This document shows positions 51,758-64,000 of a stretch of DNA of 64,000 bases, piece by piece. A program made the position numbers and the translations under genes. Source of the DNA: Calothrix sp. PCC 7507 (GTDB lineage: Bacteria > Cyanobacteriota > Cyanobacteriia > Cyanobacteriales > Nostocaceae). The stretch covers positions 6,373,501-6,437,500 of the forward strand of contig NC_019682.1 in assembly GCF_000316575.1 (NCBI RefSeq). The letters run 5' to 3'. Position 1 is the stretch's first letter. Every line of letters starts with the position of its first letter. The notes beneath the pieces were generated by a model, which was not told the origin of the DNA, did no database searches, and saw only the letters and a program-made list of their open reading frames with translations.

Positions 51758-54607
51758 TTAATCGTCTCCTGTATCACCAGGCGTTCCTCCCTTATCTGCA
51801 TTCCAAGCACTAGCCCCTGCGCCAAAACGTCCGCTAGCCAGCCATTCTGCTTTCAACAACGACCACCAATCTGCTGTCAACCCTTTGACGATATAATCGT
51901 ATGGGAGCCAGCCATAGCCACCTTGACCCCAACGCGTTCCCCAAGAATTGCGAATTAGCAATGCACCTTCTGACTTAATTCCGTCTGCATTTTCGACTGG
52001 CTTGCGGTCATGATAGCCTACTGCAACTACTGTATGACCGCCAATCACTCGGTCTTGTTTATTAGGTAGAGGGATATGCCCTTTTACCGTGTTAGCTTCA
52101 TCATAGACAGATTTGTAGAGCGTGAAGCCAAATATACAGGGAAGTTCAGCAGCCAGTAGCACTTTTACTTGCGAAAGCAGTGTGTATCGAGAAATACTAC
52201 CATAATCTAGGCGAAAATATTTGAGAGTTTTATAGTTCTCAGCAAAGGAATAGCAAAAAGGCGTTGGTTGTTCATCAAATTTAGCTTCGTCATAACTCCA
52301 GTAATTTTCTGGACAAACACCAAATGCTACCATTGCTTTCATTGTATCGCGTACAGAGGCTCCGGAATCACCTTCGGCTTGCATTAAATTGCGTGTAACT
52401 TTGTAGAGAAACAAAGGTGAAGCATCAGTATAGTTACCCGAACTTTTTTTCTCAGCATATTCCATTAAAGCAATACCAGCATGGGCTGTACAAGAGTTAA
52501 TGCTTCCCTGATCTTCAATTGGAGAACACCAATAACTGAGATCAACAAATTCAGGTAACGAGAAAAATACTCTTTGAGATTTTGATTCCGGCGGATTTTT
52601 CTGACAGTTATCTTCCTGTAATTTCCTGAACTGATTACGCAGTTTAAAATGAATCGGTAACTGCAAATTACTCTCTGTATACTGACACGAGTTATTACTC
52701 GCATCAATTGACGTTATCTGCTTAATCTCTTGAATTTCCAACAAGGTTTTTTTAAATCGAACAAACTTTCTTAAATCATTCAGTTGATCGTCATTATATT
52801 CACTTATTTTTTTCACCAAGCAATATATTAAAGGATATGTATTTCCAATGCTCTGCAAAACTTGTTGTAAATATTCTTTAAATTTAGCTTTTTTAGCTTT
52901 TTTGGTTTCTTCTGTTTGTTCTTCAATAGATTGACTGCTTTGGTTTTTATCGTGAATTTCGTCCAACTGTTGAAGTATCACCCCTAACATGAATTTTAAA
53001 AAATCAGGATTTTCTATAAGATTAAAATCTCTGATTAAGCGAAAATTATATTCTTCAATAGTTTCTCGCATTAATTCTCTTGTTTTTTGATTTTCTGGAT
53101 TATTATCTCCTCCAATTACAGAGTGCAGTCTTTTAATTACTTGCTCTACTGCTTGATTCAAGTTTCCATATTTAGCTAAAGGCATCAAAACCTGTGCAAT
53201 TAACTTAATAATTGCATCAATCAATGGGCGAATTTGATTTTCTATTTCTGTTCCTGATGATTCTTCATTCATCAAATTTTTCTGACAAAGTTCAATTAAT
53301 TTATCATGACTTGGTGACGGTACAGGTTCGATTCTTTCTTTTAATGATTGGGGCGGTATTTGCGGCGGTACAATTTGATATACCGCTTTCATAAACTTTT
53401 GCCATTCAGAAATCTTTTCTTCAATACCTTTCTTAATTGCTGCTGCTATTGTAGTTGGTGCGTCATATTCTTCTATTTCTTCGGTTTCCGGAATATTTTT
53501 CTCATCATATATTTTTCCAGCAATTTTATTTATTGTTTGCTTAACTTCGTTTTCTAGAGATAAAACTGATTCTAAGCCATTGATTTTTTCTAAAATACTA
53601 TTTAGTTCTGCCTCCGAGTTGTTTATCCATTCTTCGTTCTTAGCATCAGATACACCAATCAATGGGTCGTATTTTTTAGTAATTTCAGTTAAGGCGATCG
53701 CATTACCATGATAATCTTTAATCCACCGGCCTCCATTTCTGGTGACACACAAAAGACCATTAACAATATCACCCTTATGATCTTTGAGATATTGAATAGT
53801 GTCTTCGATATTTTTTTTACTTTTTTGTATTTTTGCTATATCCAAAATATCTATGAAATCAAAAGTCTCACATTGTAATTTCTTTAATAACTCGAATAGA
53901 TGAATGATTAATTTTATTTGACCACTCTGAAAGTGTTGAAAGCTACGTTTTGTGAATATCTCTGTTTCTCCTCGAGGATTTTTTCCTCGAGGATCGCTCC
54001 ATTTTTGCCATCTATCAGGAAGATCCTTAAGAAAGGAGGGCGAATCGATAATGATTGATAAATCAGCTAATTCTTTGATAGCTTCCATATCATCTTTATC
54101 GATTGAACCATGTTGATCATCTATGGTATTTTGCAACCGCTGTTGAGTATTGAGTACTTGATTGATCATCTTGCTGGTTTCAACATCAAACGTAGCATCT
54201 TTTAGCTTCGTGATATCCATAATCTCGTAGATATTATCTGAGCTATTAAATTTCCACGTCCAAAGAATCCGTTGCAAGTAATTCTTGATTAGTAGAACTT
54301 CTGAGTCTGCCATGCCTACTTGGAAAACGTTATGTAGTTTCACGGTGACAAATTGGCTATTTTCTCCTAAAATTTCTTGTTCTAAACCATTTTGCAATTC
54401 ACTAAATTTTTGCTTGTCTGCATCTACATTTCCTGTTTTTGCTAGAATGCCTAAAGCTTCCGAAATCTTTCTGGCAAGGTTTTCAATAGAACCTGTTTCT
54501 TTTTGACTTTGAATTCTATTTGTTAAATTTTGCAGTGCTTCACTTTGCAATGTAAAGTCATTGATATCGGGATAATCTGGAATCCAGCCTGTACCTTTAT
54601 TTTTCAT
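51758..54607 (-). CDS. C1 (papain-like) peptidase with large helical insertion
   Basis: 949 residues. The first 20 residues (GTGWIPDYPDINDFTL) match the short N-terminal motif that normally stands just before the catalytic domain in bacterial C1 peptidases. Here about 620 residues of Lys/Glu-rich helical sequence intervene. The catalytic domain (about 690-930) has the nucleophile in IEDQGSINSCTAHAG (Cys about 705), His in VIGGHTVVAVGYHDR (about 855) and Asn in LLIRNSWGTRWGQGGYG (about 885), all intact. No signal peptide is seen, so it is probably cytosolic. It is encoded 25 bp after the STAND-WD40 gene in the same operon and is a likely effector for that protein. Confidence 0.88.
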   Translation of the reverse strand: MKNKGTGWIPDYPDINDFTLQSEALQNLTNRIQSQKETGSIENLARKISEALGILAKTGNVDADKQKFSELQNGLEQEILGENSQFVTVKLHNVFQVGMADSEVLLIKNYLQRILWTWKFNSSDNIYEIMDITKLKDATFDVETSKMINQVLNTQQRLQNTIDDQHGSIDKDDMEAIKELADLSIIIDSPSFLKDLPDRWQKWSDPRGKNPRGETEIFTKRSFQHFQSGQIKLIIHLFELLKKLQCETFDFIDILDIAKIQKSKKNIEDTIQYLKDHKGDIVNGLLCVTRNGGRWIKDYHGNAIALTEITKKYDPLIGVSDAKNEEWINNSEAELNSILEKINGLESVLSLENEVKQTINKIAGKIYDEKNIPETEEIEEYDAPTTIAAAIKKGIEEKISEWQKFMKAVYQIVPPQIPPQSLKERIEPVPSPSHDKLIELCQKNLMNEESSGTEIENQIRPLIDAIIKLIAQVLMPLAKYGNLNQAVEQVIKRLHSVIGGDNNPENQKTRELMRETIEEYNFRLIRDFNLIENPDFLKFMLGVILQQLDEIHDKNQSSQSIEEQTEETKKAKKAKFKEYLQQVLQSIGNTYPLIYCLVKKISEYNDDQLNDLRKFVRFKKTLLEIQEIKQITSIDASNNSCQYTESNLQLPIHFKLRNQFRKLQEDNCQKNPPESKSQRVFFSLPEFVDLSYWCSPIEDQGSINSCTAHAGIALMEYAEKKSSGNYTDASPLFLYKVTRNLMQAEGDSGASVRDTMKAMVAFGVCPENYWSYDEAKFDEQPTPFCYSFAENYKTLKYFRLDYGSISRYTLLSQVKVLLAAELPCIFGFTLYKSVYDEANTVKGHIPLPNKQDRVIGGHTVVAVGYHDRKPVENADGIKSEGALLIRNSWGTRWGQGGYGWLPYDYIVKGLTADWWSLLKAEWLASGRFGAGASAWNADKGGTPGDTGDD

Positions 54608-54632
54608 TTTTCTGCCCCTGGTTTAGTAGAAG

Positions 54633-57600
54633 TTACTTACATGAATGATGGGATTTTAAGTAATCATGTATTTGATTACATCCTTTGGCTATGAATCCTG
54701 TAAAACTCATATCTGAGACATCCCATAGCAAGACGATGCCATCGGCACTGCTAGAAGCTAATAATTTACTATCACGGCTAAAACTCACGGCATTGACTTC
54801 CGATTTATGCCCCATTAAAGTTGTAATTAATTTGCCATCTGGTTGCCAAATTTTGATGGTTTTGTCGCTACTAGCAGTAGCAATTTTTTTGCCATCCGGG
54901 CTGAAGCTAACATCAAGTACTGATGCATTATGTTCATTCAGAGTTTTGATTAAGTTACCTGCTAAACTCCAAATTTTGATGGTTTTGTCACTACTAGCAG
55001 TAGCAATTGTTTTGCCATCTGGGCTGAAACCTACACTCCAAACTGAATTTTTGTGTGCGGGAATTGTTCTGATTTCAGTGCCATCTAAACGCCACAGCTT
55101 GACTGTACCATCGTCACCTGTAGTAGCAATAGTTTTACCATCTGGGCTGAAATTGACATTTAAAACTCTGCCATTATGTCCTTTAAGAGTATGAAGTTCC
55201 TTCCCGTCGAGACTCCACAGTTTAGCTGTGCCATCGTCACTAGCAGAAGCAATGATATCTCGACTGAAAATCACAGTATTGACGCTACGTGTATGTCCTT
55301 GCAGTATTTGCTGAAATTTCCCGTCTCGACTCCAGAGTTTGATGGTTGCGTCAGTACCACCAGTGGCTATTGTTCGCCCATCGGGGCTGAAGCCAACTCC
55401 ATACGCACTCTTTTGTTGACTCGGCCAAGTGGAAAGTAGTTTACCTTTGAGACTCCACAACCGAATCATGCCATCTTCGCCGACACTAACTACTTGCTGA
55501 CTATTATCTGGGCTAAACCTGGGACTCGTCGCTGCACCTTGATGTCCCACCAGAACAGTCAACAAGCTGCGATTTACTTGCCAGAGCTTGATAGTTTTGT
55601 CATTACTCGCAGTCGCTAACAGCTTACCATCGGGACTGAAGTTGAGGCTGGGAATTTGTCCTTCATGACTTGCCCAGGTGTCAATGAGTGTACCGTCTTT
55701 CCGCCAGAGTTTGACAGTGCCATTAAAACTACCAGAAGCAATGGTTTCTCCATCTGGATGAAAACTGACGCTATTTACTGGTTCTGAATGCGGTAGGATT
55801 TTGGGCGGTTGTCCTTCTTTTCCCCACAGTTTGACTGTTTGATCGGAGCTAGCTGTTGCCAAGATGCCGCTTTTGGGACTGAAATCTGCGCTCATAATCG
55901 CGTTATTATGTCCAGTCCATTCTTTGATCGGCTTGTCATTTTTTCCCCAGAGGCGAATTTTTGTGTCGTCGCTGATGGTGATAATTCTATCTTGAGCAAT
56001 AAAAATCGCTTGCCTGACTCTTGCACTATGTCCTTTGAATGTCTGGAGTAACTTACCGTCTAATTGCCAAAGTTTCGCTGTTTTATCTTTGCTGCTAGTG
56101 GCAATTGTCTTGCCATCGGGACTGAAACTAACGCTATAAACTGTGCTGTTGTGGGCTGGGATTGTCCTGATATACTTACCATCACGATGCCAAAGTATAA
56201 CGGTACCATCTTGACTAGCGGAGGCTAGGATCTGCCCATTGGGACTGAATTTTACACTCGTTACGGGTTTGGTATGCCCTGGTAGAGTGTTGATCAGACT
56301 GCCATCTGTTCGCCAGAGTTTGATTGTTTTGTCGTAACTAGCTGTAGCCAGAATTTGACCGTCTGGACTAAAAATGACGCTTTGAACAATTTTCTCATGT
56401 GCTTGCAGACGATCGCGTTCTCGCGTCCAGTAGACGGCTTCTGCTAGGGTTGCTTGCACATCGGCTTGCGTTTGGGGATTTTTGCCCAAAAATAGTGATT
56501 GGTAGCGATCGCTCGCCTCTAAGCCATCTATGAGAGCATCAAATGTATGTCTGTTATTAGCAAAACGAGCCTCTGAGGTTTGCCGCAAGGCGGTAATTTG
56601 TCTGCTTTCGGCTCTTTGATATTGAACGGTGGAGAAAGTCGCTAAGGCTAATGCCACAGTAGAAAAAGCAGATAAGCCAATGATGGTTTTGCGGCGTTGG
56701 CGATCGCGTCGTCCTGAACTAGCATTAATAAACTGATTCGCAGCTTCACTAAACCCACCCAAAACGGAGTTAAATGCTTCATTCCGTCTCAGTTCCAGGG
56801 TTTGTTCTAGTCTTGATCCACTCCACAGTTCATCATCTGCTTTCGTATTTTGCCATCTGAGGACATCTTCATTTAAACGATTACGGAGGGCGATCGCTTG
56901 ACGATTTGCACCGATCCATTCATGTAACCTTGTCCAAGAAGTCAGCAAGGCTTCATGGGCAATCTCTAGAGTGGAGATGTCAGCCTCTGGCTGATAGTTA
57001 CTTACCAACAGGCTTTGGTCGATCAATTGTGTCAATACTGCTGCTTCTTCTGGGCTAAACTCAGATCGCATTGCCCTTTTGCGGACTGGTTTCCAGTCGG
57101 TTCCTGACTCTTCATCCCCGCCAATTTCGACTAACTTTAAGAATATGCGTTGCACACACAGTTGTTGTTCTGCTGTGAAATTGTTGTATATTGCCTCAAC
57201 TCGTTGATGGAGTGCGCCTCTGACACCACCCAACTGGCGATAGGTATTGATATTGAGTGTGCGATCGCTAATAGCATTCAGATTAACTTCTGTTTCCCAA
57301 AGTAAATTCAGCGTATATTGCAACAACGGCAAATACCCCGCCTGTCCCTCGATATTGGTAATAATTTCCTCTACCAATCCCGTTTCAAACACCACCCCAC
57401 GCTGGGCTGCTGGCTGTTCTATCGCTAATCGCAACTCATCTCGTTGCATTTCGGCAATAAATGGACGATGCTTATCTGTAGCTTTGACTAACTGCGGATA
57501 AGGACTCAATCGATCCAGAAAGTCAGCCCGCATTGTCGCTACAATTTTGACAGCATGTTGCTTAGTTTTGCTTAGTTGCACCAAACTGGCGATAAATTGG

Positions 57601-58166
57601 TTGCGCTTTTCTAAATGACTATTAGTAAATAACTCCTCAAATTGGTCAATCAAAATAAACCAATAATCATCAGGCTGCTTTAATCTCGTTAGCACCTGAT
57701 TAAGAGTATCAGCTTTGGCTTCACGGGCAATTTGGACTTCGCTTTGTTTGTATTTACCCAGTAGGCTCGCATAAAAAGACTCAAATGGATCGACATCTGG
57801 AGTAAACACAAAGTTTACTAACCGTGAACCCCATTTTTGAGACAACCAAGGAATTAAACCTGCTCTGACTAAAGATGACTTGCCACTACCACTAGCCCCT
57901 AATAGCAAAATTAGGTTAGTTTGTTCTAGTTCATTTACCAAACCCGTGAGAAATTGATCCCGTCCAAAAAATAGGTCTTTGTCTTCTGGTTCAAATTTCT
58001 TTAAACCTTTGTAGGGAGAAGTTGCTATAAATTGACGGGTTTTAATCTCATCAACTGCGATTTGCAGAATTTGAGTCTGATTGAGAGTAACAACGTTGCT
58101 GTCACCCATTGAGATATGACTAATTTTTTGCCTAGCTTCTTGATTACTAGGAAATTCCTGGCTCAT
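54633..58166 (-). CDS. STAND NTPase (nSTAND1 type) with membrane anchor and 14 WD40 repeats
   Basis: 1177 residues from the ATG overlapping the previous stop (ATGA at 58163-58166); an ATG at 58178 is also in frame. Parts: a short leader with SMGDSNVVTLNQTQI, the nSTAND1 signature YKGLKKFEPEDKDLFFGRDQ, Walker A GASGSGKSS (near residue 92-100), Walker B WFILIDQFEELF, a helical region up to about 490, one membrane helix (TIIGLSAFSTVALALATFST, about 500), a linker, then 14 WD40 repeats (about 590-1160; FSPDG...DKTIKLW), which would build two seven-bladed propellers. A sensor-type switch ATPase. Operon with a small helical protein upstream and a C1 peptidase downstream. Confidence 0.92.
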   Translation of the reverse strand: MSQEFPSNQEARQKISHISMGDSNVVTLNQTQILQIAVDEIKTRQFIATSPYKGLKKFEPEDKDLFFGRDQFLTGLVNELEQTNLILLLGASGSGKSSLVRAGLIPWLSQKWGSRLVNFVFTPDVDPFESFYASLLGKYKQSEVQIAREAKADTLNQVLTRLKQPDDYWFILIDQFEELFTNSHLEKRNQFIASLVQLSKTKQHAVKIVATMRADFLDRLSPYPQLVKATDKHRPFIAEMQRDELRLAIEQPAAQRGVVFETGLVEEIITNIEGQAGYLPLLQYTLNLLWETEVNLNAISDRTLNINTYRQLGGVRGALHQRVEAIYNNFTAEQQLCVQRIFLKLVEIGGDEESGTDWKPVRKRAMRSEFSPEEAAVLTQLIDQSLLVSNYQPEADISTLEIAHEALLTSWTRLHEWIGANRQAIALRNRLNEDVLRWQNTKADDELWSGSRLEQTLELRRNEAFNSVLGGFSEAANQFINASSGRRDRQRRKTIIGLSAFSTVALALATFSTVQYQRAESRQITALRQTSEARFANNRHTFDALIDGLEASDRYQSLFLGKNPQTQADVQATLAEAVYWTRERDRLQAHEKIVQSVIFSPDGQILATASYDKTIKLWRTDGSLINTLPGHTKPVTSVKFSPNGQILASASQDGTVILWHRDGKYIRTIPAHNSTVYSVSFSPDGKTIATSSKDKTAKLWQLDGKLLQTFKGHSARVRQAIFIAQDRIITISDDTKIRLWGKNDKPIKEWTGHNNAIMSADFSPKSGILATASSDQTVKLWGKEGQPPKILPHSEPVNSVSFHPDGETIASGSFNGTVKLWRKDGTLIDTWASHEGQIPSLNFSPDGKLLATASNDKTIKLWQVNRSLLTVLVGHQGAATSPRFSPDNSQQVVSVGEDGMIRLWSLKGKLLSTWPSQQKSAYGVGFSPDGRTIATGGTDATIKLWSRDGKFQQILQGHTRSVNTVIFSRDIIASASDDGTAKLWSLDGKELHTLKGHNGRVLNVNFSPDGKTIATTGDDGTVKLWRLDGTEIRTIPAHKNSVWSVGFSPDGKTIATASSDKTIKIWSLAGNLIKTLNEHNASVLDVSFSPDGKKIATASSDKTIKIWQPDGKLITTLMGHKSEVNAVSFSRDSKLLASSSADGIVLLWDVSDMSFTGFIAKGCNQIHDYLKSHHSCK

Positions 58167-58678
58167 AGCCCTACCCATACCTTAGCAAGTAAAGGAGCTA
58201 TTTTCAAAACTGGCTCTGCTATCTCTGCCGCCCCTGTTAAACCTTTTTTTAATGCTTCTAATGCTTGTTCTACCAAGTTTTTATCTGGTTTAGGCTTGTT
58301 TAATTCTCCTTCAATTGTTTGCAGCGGCACTTCTAAAGTTTTTTTCTCAATCAAGTTTAAGCTATTACTTCCTGCAATATCTTGCTTCAATTTCGAGAGC
58401 AAATTTAAGGCTTCTTGGATATTAGCATTCTCAATCCTAGCCTGAGTCCTATTTTGACTGATGCTACTTCCCCGATCTGCTTGCAATTGATTAAAGGCAA
58501 TATCGGAGTTACCGCTACCAATAGTAATACCCTCAATATTTTGGGAATGGGACTCCACAACACCAGTAGTGGACGGATTACTCAAAATCTTGGCTAGGGA
58601 ATTTTGCAATTCCAATTTTTCTTCCACCGTAAGATTTTGAATAATCTCTAAAACTTCGTTCACATTGTATTTTGGCAT
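58163..58678 (-). CDS. small helical protein, possible adaptor of the STAND-peptidase operon
   Basis: 171 residues. Leading helices (MPKYNVNEVLEIIQNLTVEE) are followed by a polar Gly/Asn segment (EGITIGSGNSDIAFNQLQAD) like the SMGDSNVVTLNQ stretch in the STAND protein, then helices (LLSKLKQDIAGSNSLNLIEK, LEGELNKPKPDKNLVEQALE-like) and a hydrophobic end (AEIAEPVLKIAPLLAKVWV). No named family is recognised. The stop overlaps the STAND start by ATGA, so expression is coupled. The end hydrophobic helix could sit at the membrane near the STAND anchor. Confidence 0.75.
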   Translation of the reverse strand: MPKYNVNEVLEIIQNLTVEEKLELQNSLAKILSNPSTTGVVESHSQNIEGITIGSGNSDIAFNQLQADRGSSISQNRTQARIENANIQEALNLLSKLKQDIAGSNSLNLIEKKTLEVPLQTIEGELNKPKPDKNLVEQALEALKKGLTGAAEIAEPVLKIAPLLAKVWVGL

Positions 58679-58990: not shown

Positions 58991-59710
58991 CTACAATCGG
59001 TCTGGATCAATTCCTAAAGCCTTTAGTTGCGCTGCTAATTGTTCAGCGCGTTGTTCAGCAGTTTGGGCGCGTTGTTCAGCACTTTCGGCCCGTTCAGCAC
59101 CAGTCGGCAAAACATGATTCTTGTTGTTGCACCAACGCAACCAAACATCTTGCTTACCTTCAAACACACCTTCCCATAACGTCAAACCTAAACCCACTCC
59201 TTCTAACCAGAATCCTTCTATCTCTACATAATGTCTCAGTCTTAACTCATAGATATGCAGCAACTGATTTCCCAACAGTTGCAAGGGATCAAATACTGCG
59301 TAGTACTAAATTCCCATCCGAGCATAATCTACCAACTTACTACTCAGTTCGTTACCTTCACGATTAGAAACAATTTCTATGGCCACATCAGGTGCTTTAC
59401 CAAATTCCGACACAAAATAAGTCCGGTTCTTCTTTTCGCGCCAATCTTCCGGCATGGTAACATCCAGACTGAGAAACACATCTGGCACTAGTGGCGGTAA
59501 GCCAATCCCATAAAAAACCCCAACATTTGCCGCTGCGATAAATGCCTCAGAACCTTTGGGAGTCTGCCACGAACTATATAGAACTTCCGTTAACAGCCGT
59601 TGTTGTTTTTCCGAACGAAAGTTATCCACAGGTGTATCGTCTTCGATCACTAGCTGGTTAATATCTGGAGCCTCAGCAATGTAATCTGAGGATAAAGCTT
59701 CTTGAACCAT
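58991..59710 (-). pseudogene. Uma2-family protein interrupted by one in-frame TAG
   Basis: The 134-residue part (MVQEALSSDYIAEAPDINQL, PPLVPDVFLSLDVTMPEDWR, PDVAIEIVSNREGNELSSK with the PD-(D/E)xK-like site) ends DYARMGI-stop, and the same frame continues YYAVFDPLQLLGNQLLHIYE to LAAQLKALGIDPDRL. Relatives usually read GVKYYAVFDP here, so AAG to TAG is the simplest change (59306-59308). The C-terminus has Glu/Gln/Arg heptads (ERAESAEQRAQTAEQRAEQ). A single base restores a 239-residue protein. Uma2 is a nuclease-like family widely duplicated in cyanobacteria. Confidence 0.85.
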
Positions 59711-62369: not shown

Positions 62370-64000
62370 TCACGCGAGAACAAGAACGACGCGAAAACCG
62401 AAATAGTCGTCACGGGCGTCGGGGGAATTCCAGCCACGGTTCCCACCGCGACAGTACCCTGGGTCGAAGTTCCAAGAACCACCACGCAGCAGACGGGCAG
62501 ATTGATTATCATTATCATTGATCCACGCCTTACCATTTGTCGGTACGCCATTGTAATTATCATGGTAATGGTCTTGACACCACTCCCAAACATTGCCATG
62601 CATATCGTATAACCCAAAAGCGTTGGCGGGAAAAGTTCCTACTGGGGTTGTTTCATTGCGATATTGACCTTTGGGTGCAGAGGCGTATGTAAAAGTCCCG
62701 TTGTAATTTACTAAATCTGTTGTAATCGTCGCACCAAAATAAAACGGCGTAGTCGTCCCCGCACGACAAGCATATTCCCATTCCGCTTCGCTAGGTAGTC
62801 GATAGGTGCGTCCTGTCTTCTGACTCAACTTCTTGCAAAATTCCACCGCATCATCCCAACTCACTTTTTCTACAGGTTTTTTCTCTCCTTTAAAGTTAGA
62901 AGGATTTGTCCCCATAATTGCTTGATACTGCGCTTGGGTAACTTCATATTTCCCCATGAAGAAGCCAGGAACTGTTACCTGACGCGGTGGACTCTCATCT
63001 TTCTCTCTTTTCTCTTCCCCATCCGGTGAACCCATTGTGAAAGTCCCCCCTGGTATCTGCACCATTTCCAAAGTGACACCATTTCCCAAGTCTTCTATAA
63101 ATCTTTTAGCTTCAAGCTGGCGGCGGTTGGTGATGGTTCCCTGTGCATTCACCGTCACTGTTTCAAATGGAAAGGTTTTTAAGCTATTGCTAGAAACGGG
63201 AGACGGCTTACTAGAACCTCCTGAAATAGACGGCCACAAACGCGGTACTACAATTGCCAAGCCCAACCCAGCACTCGCAAACCCAACTGTTTGAATTACC
63301 CTGCGTCGTGACCAGTTGGGGAATATTATTTTCGTTGGTGTTGGTGTTGGTGTTGGTATGGGTGGTGGCGGTGGTTGTCGTCGTTGTGGTTTTGGTGGCT
63401 GGAGTGCTTGCAACACTTCTTCTGCTGAAAAATATCTGTCTCGAAAGTGATAAGTCACCATCTTATTTAACACCATAGCCAGTTGCTCACTGACATTTGC
63501 CCCATTACGCCAAATCACTTCACCGTCAGTGGAGTCTTTTGGTAGTTGATGAGGTTGTATCCCTGTTAACGCATGAATCCCCAACATCCCCACTGCGTAG
63601 ACATCGCTACATAATTTTGGTTGTCCCGTTGCTTGTTCACTGGGCATATAACCAACCGTGCCAATCGTCACGCTAACACTGGTTTGCCCTTCAGTATTCA
63701 ACATCATGGTGTTAACTTCTTTGACTGCGCCAAAGTCTATCAAGACTATCTTGCTGTCCTGACGACGACGCATGATGTTCTGAGGTTTGATGTCGCGGTG
63801 GATGATATTCTTTTTGTGGACTACTGCTAATACTTCCAGAATTTCTTGTAATAGCTTTGTGACTTCTGTTTCCGTTAACTTCTTACCAACAATGATTTCT
63901 TTGCTGAGGTCTTCCCCATCAACAAATTCCTGAACCAAATAAAATTCGCCTTGTTCTTCAAAGTGGGCAAATAGTTTGGGTATTTGATCGCTATCATTGC
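62370..64000 (-). CDS. Ser/Thr protein kinase fused to FGE-sulfatase (SUMF1) domain, N-terminus outside window
   Basis: Partial: the N-lobe lies beyond 64000. Visible: hinge YLVQEFVDGEDL, catalytic loop IIHRDIKPQNIMRRR, DFG in VLIDFGAVKE, then the C-lobe. A Pro/Thr-rich linker with TPTPTPTK leads to one membrane helix (VIQTVGFASAGLGLAIVVPR). The FGE-type domain starts LEMVQIPGGTFTMGSPDGEE and contains FFMGKYEVTQAQYQ, YRLPSEAEWEYACRAGTTTP, NAFGLYDMHGNVWEWCQDHY and ends RLLRGGSWNFDPGYC...GFRVV. A membrane-anchored kinase with an extracytoplasmic C-type-lectin-like fold. The last 41 codons resemble a DGR variable region. Confidence 0.93.
   Translation of the reverse strand, partial: NDSDQIPKLFAHFEEQGEFYLVQEFVDGEDLSKEIIVGKKLTETEVTKLLQEILEVLAVVHKKNIIHRDIKPQNIMRRRQDSKIVLIDFGAVKEVNTMMLNTEGQTSVSVTIGTVGYMPSEQATGQPKLCSDVYAVGMLGIHALTGIQPHQLPKDSTDGEVIWRNGANVSEQLAMVLNKMVTYHFRDRYFSAEEVLQALQPPKPQRRQPPPPPIPTPTPTPTKIIFPNWSRRRVIQTVGFASAGLGLAIVVPRLWPSISGGSSKPSPVSSNSLKTFPFETVTVNAQGTITNRRQLEAKRFIEDLGNGVTLEMVQIPGGTFTMGSPDGEEKREKDESPPRQVTVPGFFMGKYEVTQAQYQAIMGTNPSNFKGEKKPVEKVSWDDAVEFCKKLSQKTGRTYRLPSEAEWEYACRAGTTTPFYFGATITTDLVNYNGTFTYASAPKGQYRNETTPVGTFPANAFGLYDMHGNVWEWCQDHYHDNYNGVPTNGKAWINDNDNQSARLLRGGSWNFDPGYCRGGNRGWNSPDARDDYFGFRVVLVLA
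62373..62495 (-). other. candidate DGR variable region at the 3' end of the kinase-FGE gene
   Basis: The end reads SWNFDPGYCRGGNRGWNSPD, then ARDDYFGFRVVLVLA. The frame WNxxPxxCRxxxRxxxxPxxRxxxxGFRVV is what FGE-fold DGR targets share, with changeable positions filled by residues reachable from Asn codons (F, D, Y, G, A, N). Codons there include TTC, GAC, TAC, GGC, GCC, TAT. The matching template and reverse transcriptase are not in the window. Confidence 0.45.

Follow-up and report, generated by a model that had tools for sequence, protein, structure and literature searches.

The genome of Calothrix sp. PCC 7507 is a single contig of 7.02 Mb, and the stretch of it analyzed here (the window, 64,000 nucleotides) carries a cluster of three intact minus-strand genes in the order small protein, nSTAND1–WD40 receptor and C1 (papain) peptidase, spanning positions 51758–58678. 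A carotenoid-oxygenase-like gene (Pfam RPE65) flanks the cluster on one side, and a MiaB-like radical-SAM gene flanks it on the other. An earlier reading of the sequence (the original prediction) had described the cluster as a candidate undescribed conflict or programmed-death system, and the list of open reading frames (ORFs) and the rechecked coordinates bear out its layout: when gene 2 is started at the internal ATG at 58166, it overlaps gene 1 by ATGA, and 25 bp separate the receptor stop from the peptidase start. In the annotation of a Dolichospermum plasmid, a relative likewise overlaps by 4 bases. The three genes plausibly form an operon.

Gene 2 qualifies as an nSTAND1 receptor by its PF20703 domain, and the 14 WD40 repeats read from its sequence are recovered by Pfam as well; over the 12 repeats found by pattern, mean identity is 39%. 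Its strongest hydrophobic stretch, at residues 497–518, is a plausible membrane helix, as had been suggested. Gene 3 belongs to the C1A papain peptidases by its catalytic domain (Pfam Peptidase_C1, expectation value (E) 1.1e-10) and its Gln/Cys/His/Asn set: the triad predicted to be intact (C706, H858 and N887) is present together with Q700, and these four residues are invariant in the nine long peptidases aligned. The nearest solved sequence to the catalytic domain is PDB 3ois (labelled Cysteine protease; E 3.5e-31), which we take to be xylellain, a peptidase whose N-terminal segment presumably covers the active site. The GWIPDYPD segment of gene 3 is lined up with 3ois residues 29–49, a stretch that on its own scores a nonsignificant 1.1 bits. 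The feature coordinates are collected in Table 1.

Table 1. Features of the three-gene cluster, in window positions.
Feature	Position	Strand	Remarks
Gene 1, 171-residue small protein	58163..58678	-	Two N-terminal helices, a Gly/Asn/Gln motif and a helical bundle at the C-terminus
N-terminal helices of gene 1 (about residues 1–33)	58580..58678	-	AlphaFold 2 helices 5–13 and 17–31; block predicted local distance difference test (pLDDT) 69–79
Putative amyloid-signalling-type motif of gene 1 (about residues 41–80)	58439..58558	-	Matches leaders of adjoining receptors
C-terminal helical bundle of gene 1 (residues 81–171)	58166..58438	-	Block pLDDT 71–93; PADLOC PDC-M14B
Gene 2, nSTAND1–WD40 receptor	54633..58178	-	1181 residues from first ATG; likely start 58166
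Leader motif of gene 2	58071..58130	-	Match to gene 1 motif across the family
nSTAND1 NTPase domain	56832..58016	-	Pfam PF20703, E 1.8e-111
Predicted hydrophobic/membrane helix of gene 2 (residues 497–518)	56625..56690	-	Kyte–Doolittle 1.7
WD40 region, 14 repeats (bounds approximate)	54729..56423	-	Pfam PF00400, 14 stretches
Gene 3, long C1 (papain, xylellain-like) peptidase	51758..54607	-	949 residues
N-terminal GWIPDYPDIND segment of gene 3	54557..54589	-	Retained, slightly varied, across the 9 aligned long peptidases
Insert of gene 3, about 660 residues	52568..54550	-	Between N-terminal segment and catalytic domain
C1 catalytic domain of gene 3	51908..52528	-	Q700, C706, H858, N887

Relatives of the gene 3 catalytic domain are common and mostly short (at 1e-5, found in 37 of 292 genomes searched across the phylum), and it is the long form that is tied to WD40 receptors. 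Neighbours were read at 48 C1 loci, which comprise the matches of an order-level search (45 of 388 genomes at 1e-30), locus L062 from another order, L055 and the window; eight of the 48 come from wider neighbourhoods of phylum-level C1 matches. The class "long" was defined by the insert, and four split genes were placed by a neighbouring piece that begins with GW-PDYPD or GW-PEYPD. Because the class "MED" received its name only once the neighbours were known, the main test compares long with all others. A WD40 gene adjoins the peptidase upstream and on the same strand at all 15 long loci (four with split frames), whereas a WD40 neighbour is present at four of the other 33, always convergent, and absent from the remaining 29 (Fisher 3.5e-9). 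After collapsing at 80% identity, the counts are eight of eight versus four of 23 (Fisher 6.3e-5). In a tree of C1 domains the long set forms one group (99/99; L178, whose domain is too short, was left out), and the four peptidases with convergent WD40 neighbours stand beside it (84/93) on a branch that is not firm. A plasmid of Nostoc carneum holds a further convergent case, in which a 786-residue C1 protein lies beside a 1400-residue protein with, by eye, a CHAT-like start, a P-loop middle and a WD40-like end. With its insert-bearing clade so placed, the peptidase is no random neighbour, which supports the original prediction on this point. No published description of a link between papain/C1 peptidases and WD40 receptors was found in the literature searched, from which most subscription papers are missing. 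Among the short C1 peptidases, those of L065, L066 and L173 have a LanM-like protein as direct neighbour or one gene away (Pfam scan of L065 alone: DUF4135 and LANC_like).

The receptors beside the long peptidases vary in their front ends. For instance, Pfam reads the receptor of L060 as TIR–nSTAND1–WD40 with an adjoining caspase–TIR gene, and the same gene starts occur in L162, L164 and L165; the receptor of L163 starts like the L060 type. The receptor of L156 has three TIR stretches in its first 500 residues followed by WD40, that of L157 is TIR–WD40, none of the 25 families listed for its first 500 residues being an NTPase, L158–L160 have the same start as L157, and that of L161 is caspase–nSTAND1; in L166 and L167 the receptors are cut by contig ends. 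The window and L055 (Nostoc spongiaeforme) have an nSTAND1–WD40 receptor with a separate small protein. Since these receptors differ in front end and all have WD40, the constant element is the C1 peptidase plus WD40. The peptidases of the window and L055 are 83% identical in the catalytic part and 46% identical overall. Inside the insert, PG_binding_1 is found in relatives (E 4.8e-18 in L157, 1.2e-9 to 5.2e-11 in L060, L165 and L162, and 0.056 in L055) and lies above the Pfam cut-off in four of the eight scanned; Pfam recognized it in none of L156, L166, L061 and the window. The PG_binding_1-bearing peptidases (L157:8251–10857, L060, L162 and L165) have no obvious signal peptide at their start, as judged by eye.

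Gene 1 is the 171-residue helical protein originally described, its helices being drawn in an AlphaFold model that is shallow (five sequences, mean pLDDT 72, predicted template modeling score 0.50) and falls below pLDDT 50 at residues 33–59. The last helix of the bundle is hydrophobic (Kyte–Doolittle 1.39), and structure comparison gave generic helical bundles as the only matches. Neither Pfam nor NCBIfam holds a fitting family (Pfam gave only three matches, E 0.15 or worse), and the adaptor families EAD, Death-like and TRADD-N, whose models we take Pfam to contain, do not match at E up to 1. The PADLOC candidate PDC-M14B, a name that was not found in the literature searched, matches the last ~90 residues (E 3.7e-6 in the window, 3.9e-9 in L127), and the front part of that model is without a match. 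Among named relatives of the window protein, the closest belong to Nostoc and Komarekiella. When the order was searched with a profile built from motif and bundle, 56 of 388 genomes had a match (E up to 1e-4), and in 32 the match was below 1e-20; with gene 1 as the single query, 11 of 292 genomes of the phylum matched (E up to 0.001). The 33 best profile matches (32 genomes) were examined as loci, with weaker ones only from genomes G294, G379, G565 and G402; L024, L059, L101 and L111 have no ORF-level match to the profile, and L125 has a short match only. In several relatives (L016, L017 and L019) the alignment places a CHAT-like domain ahead of the motif (Pfam CHAT, E 9.4e-11 in L017, the sole relative of this type scanned), so the same motif–bundle tail is used by a protease-like protein as well as by a small protein on its own.

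The small protein and the receptor are a recurrent gene pair: an nSTAND1-like gene lies within 1 kb of the small-protein-type effector in 30 of 43 loci. These 30 pairs were dereplicated to 21 for a pairing test, and the 13 loci without such a gene within 1 kb were left out. The motif–leader score averages 66.3 for own pairs versus 38.7 for crossed ones, and none of 20000 partner permutations scored as high; the excess may partly reflect shared descent of the gene pairs, whereas a residue-shuffle test is independent of descent. In that test, 19 of the 21 pairs have a true score that is reached by no more than two of 2000 shuffled leaders. The own leader ranks first in eight of the 21 and among the first three in 17. 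Five extra pairs from the loci left out each gave 0/2000 (nSTAND1 in L107, NACHT in L122, L127 and L128, and trypsin–CHASE2 in L108), as did the plasmid pair L219. With the Gln of the RHIM/BASS3 motif dropped, the core is found in 10 of 21 effectors and 10 of 21 leaders versus 3.0 and 4.0 by shuffling. Both partners have a relaxed core with a following Asn in nine of 21 pairs, the window not among them, versus 0.04 expected from shuffles, and both have a shorter phi-x-phi-G core in eight of 21, the window included, versus 0.54 expected.

Some loci depart from this arrangement. At L108:5714–8936 the partner of a CHAT-like effector, itself equipped with motif and bundle, is not an NTPase but a trypsin–CHASE2 protein, at whose N-terminus the matching motif lies. 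The small motif–bundle proteins of L116, L121 and L124 have no nSTAND1-like gene within 1 kb. In L056, L057, L058 and L099 the receptor is short (726–735 residues) and without the WD40 pattern, and a 421–427-residue protein occupies the position of the window peptidase (no Pfam match in L056, the one scanned).

The cluster is accessory, because two relatives have the flanking genes without it and the gene 1–gene 2 pair is found on two plasmids. Five flank sites were read, of which two are informative: in L221, from the same genus, the carotenoid-oxygenase and MiaB genes lie ~2.1 kb apart with other small genes and no operon between them, and in L223 a shortened oxygenase gene lies ~0.8 kb from MiaB, the operon again missing; at L222, L224 and L225 the vicinity of MiaB shows no oxygenase gene. 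The plasmids are those of Nostoc sp. TCL26-01 and Dolichospermum sp. UHCC 0315A. A search of genomes for the same three-gene order, as had been proposed, finds it again in L055, but the trio is rare as a unit (two of 43 small-protein loci, and two of the nine close ones). Homologues are not confined to unlinked genes, as both the gene pairing and the peptidase–WD40 linkage recur. Beside the cluster, at window positions 58991–59710 on the minus strand, a Uma2-type gene is seemingly split over two frames (134 residues, Pfam Uma2 E 1.5e-8, then a 97-residue frame); L223 has a 193-residue Uma2 gene at the same flank.

With a probability of roughly one half, we read the cluster as an accessory, NLR-like alarm inside the cells of multicellular cyanobacteria, that is, a putative WD40-sensing death or defence switch with the peptidase as receptor partner. 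The biochemistry, cue and outcome that we infer for it are as follows. The WD40 propellers would bind a danger cue, upon which the nSTAND1 NTPase would oligomerise, probably at the membrane. The clustered leader motifs might then serve as templates for the look-alike motif in gene 1, in an amyloid-like or otherwise homotypic manner, and templating would cluster its helical bundle, likely a membrane-acting or adaptor effector. The C1 peptidase could be kept inactive by its N-terminal segment and insert; as a dedicated partner of the WD40 receptor, it would be freed or recruited on activation and cut proteins, leading to cell death or arrest. The peptidase is most likely a receptor partner, whether as an executioner acting downstream or as a licensing protease. 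More tentatively, the papain clade with its own regulatory insert may be a dedicated, exchangeable partner of WD40 death receptors with TIR, caspase or amyloid-paired helical-effector front ends, an apoptosome-like combination of WD40 and cysteine protease in which the protease is a papain.

Several results weigh against this reading. The window motif pair is itself weak: 90 of 2000 shuffled leaders reach its score, and its own leader ranks eighth of 21. The original prediction had suggested contact between the two proteins from a shared short stretch, a remark thus unconvincing from the window alone that holds when the motif match is followed across the 21 loci. L105 is the other weak pair (34/2000), and the window's close relatives are stronger (0 in L014, 1 in L055). 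The strict RHIM/BASS3 core (phi-Q-phi-G) occurs in none of the 21 effectors and none of the 21 leaders, and residues 60–80 of gene 1, part of the motif, are modelled as a low-confidence helix (block pLDDT 53–64). The peptidase is missing from 41 of the 43 small-protein loci, and the reverse linkage is absent, as only two of 22 motif-paired receptors with a WD40 pattern have a peptidase and 20 do not; thus genes 1 and 2 do not need the peptidase, nor does a WD40 receptor. The link between long C1 peptidases and WD40 may stem from one ancestral association. The expectation of a defence island was not borne out, as PADLOC (E up to 1e-5) found no clear defence system among ten other window proteins. 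One of these (62370–63938, minus strand) matches the models PD-T4-6, which we take to be kinase-like, strongly, as well as mad6 and MkoA, and two more match a desaturase-named model. By whole-protein PADLOC match to known anti-phage systems, the receptor and small protein gave partial matches only and the peptidase none. Finally, since receptors with TIR or caspase domains come with an effector of their own, the peptidase may act as a regulator.

Such a regulator would trim or release WD40 receptors or remove spent ones, and killing would fall to the TIR or caspase front end of the receptor or to the small protein. We hold this to be possible but doubtful. Long C1 genes do accompany receptors that already bear TIR or caspase domains, and WD40 is the feature seen in all 15 neighbouring receptors, but no cleavage site or interaction is known for this peptidase, which keeps its catalytic residues. 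Just as doubtful is the idea that the motifs are not amyloid: one small protein would then bind one receptor through short segments that fold or through a docking site that is disordered. The absent strict core and the disordered or low-confidence helical motif region of the gene 1 model would fit this idea. Against it stand the relaxed core with Asn in both partners of nine pairs, although the window has only the shorter phi-x-phi-G core, and the look-alike motifs in two otherwise unrelated neighbours, which are the published signature of amyloid signalling (PMC7889193). A developmental or stress switch of filamentous cyanobacteria (e.g., differentiation or death under stress), rather than an antiviral system, is unlikely: the family is found across cyanobacterial families (the systematic search having been within cyanobacteria) and some gene 1 relatives carry CHAT, a domain named after HetF, but the patchy, accessory and partly plasmid-borne distribution fits conflict systems better than core development. 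A hitchhiking third gene with a housekeeping function is disfavoured and highly improbable. In its favour, the peptidase is missing from most small-protein loci, even from seven of the nine close ones; against it, all 15 long C1 genes read lie beside WD40 receptors, and L055 keeps the same trio in spite of the divergence of its peptidase.

Should the peptidase indeed partner WD40 receptors, the caspases and trypsins that are wired to NLR-like receptors of bacteria would be joined by papain-type proteases, and the WD40 sensor, not the killing domain, would be the shared element. The ~26 natural divergent motif couples (21 plus five) would allow partner-swap tests of specificity in homotypic, possibly amyloid, signalling.

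Each part of the cluster can be set against a described system. Xylellain (3ois) is a short bacterial C1A peptidase of 291 residues that has the C1 catalytic domain in common with gene 3, whereas gene 3 adds ~660 residues ahead of that domain and accompanies a WD40 receptor. The STAND conflict systems with EAD, Death-like or TRADD-N adaptors (Kaur et al., 2020, 2021; PMC7159879 and PMC8195603) resemble the window, as far as the available parts of these papers go, in combining a STAND NTPase with superstructure repeats and a receptor–effector adaptor, and they also have peptidase effectors in multicellular bacteria. Their peptidases, in the same parts, are mainly caspase- and trypsin-like, in contrast to the papain found here, and none of their adaptor families matches the window small protein.

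The closest likeness is to bacterial amyloid signalosomes (BASS), in which a look-alike short motif is found in the NLR leader and in the small helical effector of an adjacent or overlapping gene (PMC7889193 and PMC8086366, which attribute the motif/BELL/NLR gene pairs to Dyrka et al., 2020). Motif-paired NLR systems are thus an already known kind, and the claim of an undescribed system falls for this part (PMC7889193) but stands for the papain–WD40 link within the literature searched. The window pair has in common with BASS the adjacent or overlapping genes and a look-alike motif that a small helical protein and the N-terminus of the NLR both bear, a likeness found in 21 pairs and weak in the window pair itself. 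The family further has in common with BASS its CHAT variants, amyloid motifs having been reported with CHAT domains as well (PMC7889193), and its filamentous cyanobacterial hosts. The core of the RHIM/PP/BASS3 motifs is given as G-(I,V)-Q-(I,V)-G in PMC7885112. In BASS the motif lies at the C-terminus of a BELL domain, whereas in gene 1 it lies ahead of the helical bundle, and the extra peptidase gene is not part of BASS pairs. Judged from layout and motif matching rather than from BASS1–10 profiles, the small protein and receptor would work like a BASS pair. The known part of the cluster is therefore a motif-paired NLR-like receptor, and the unexpected part is a papain clade tied to WD40 receptors.

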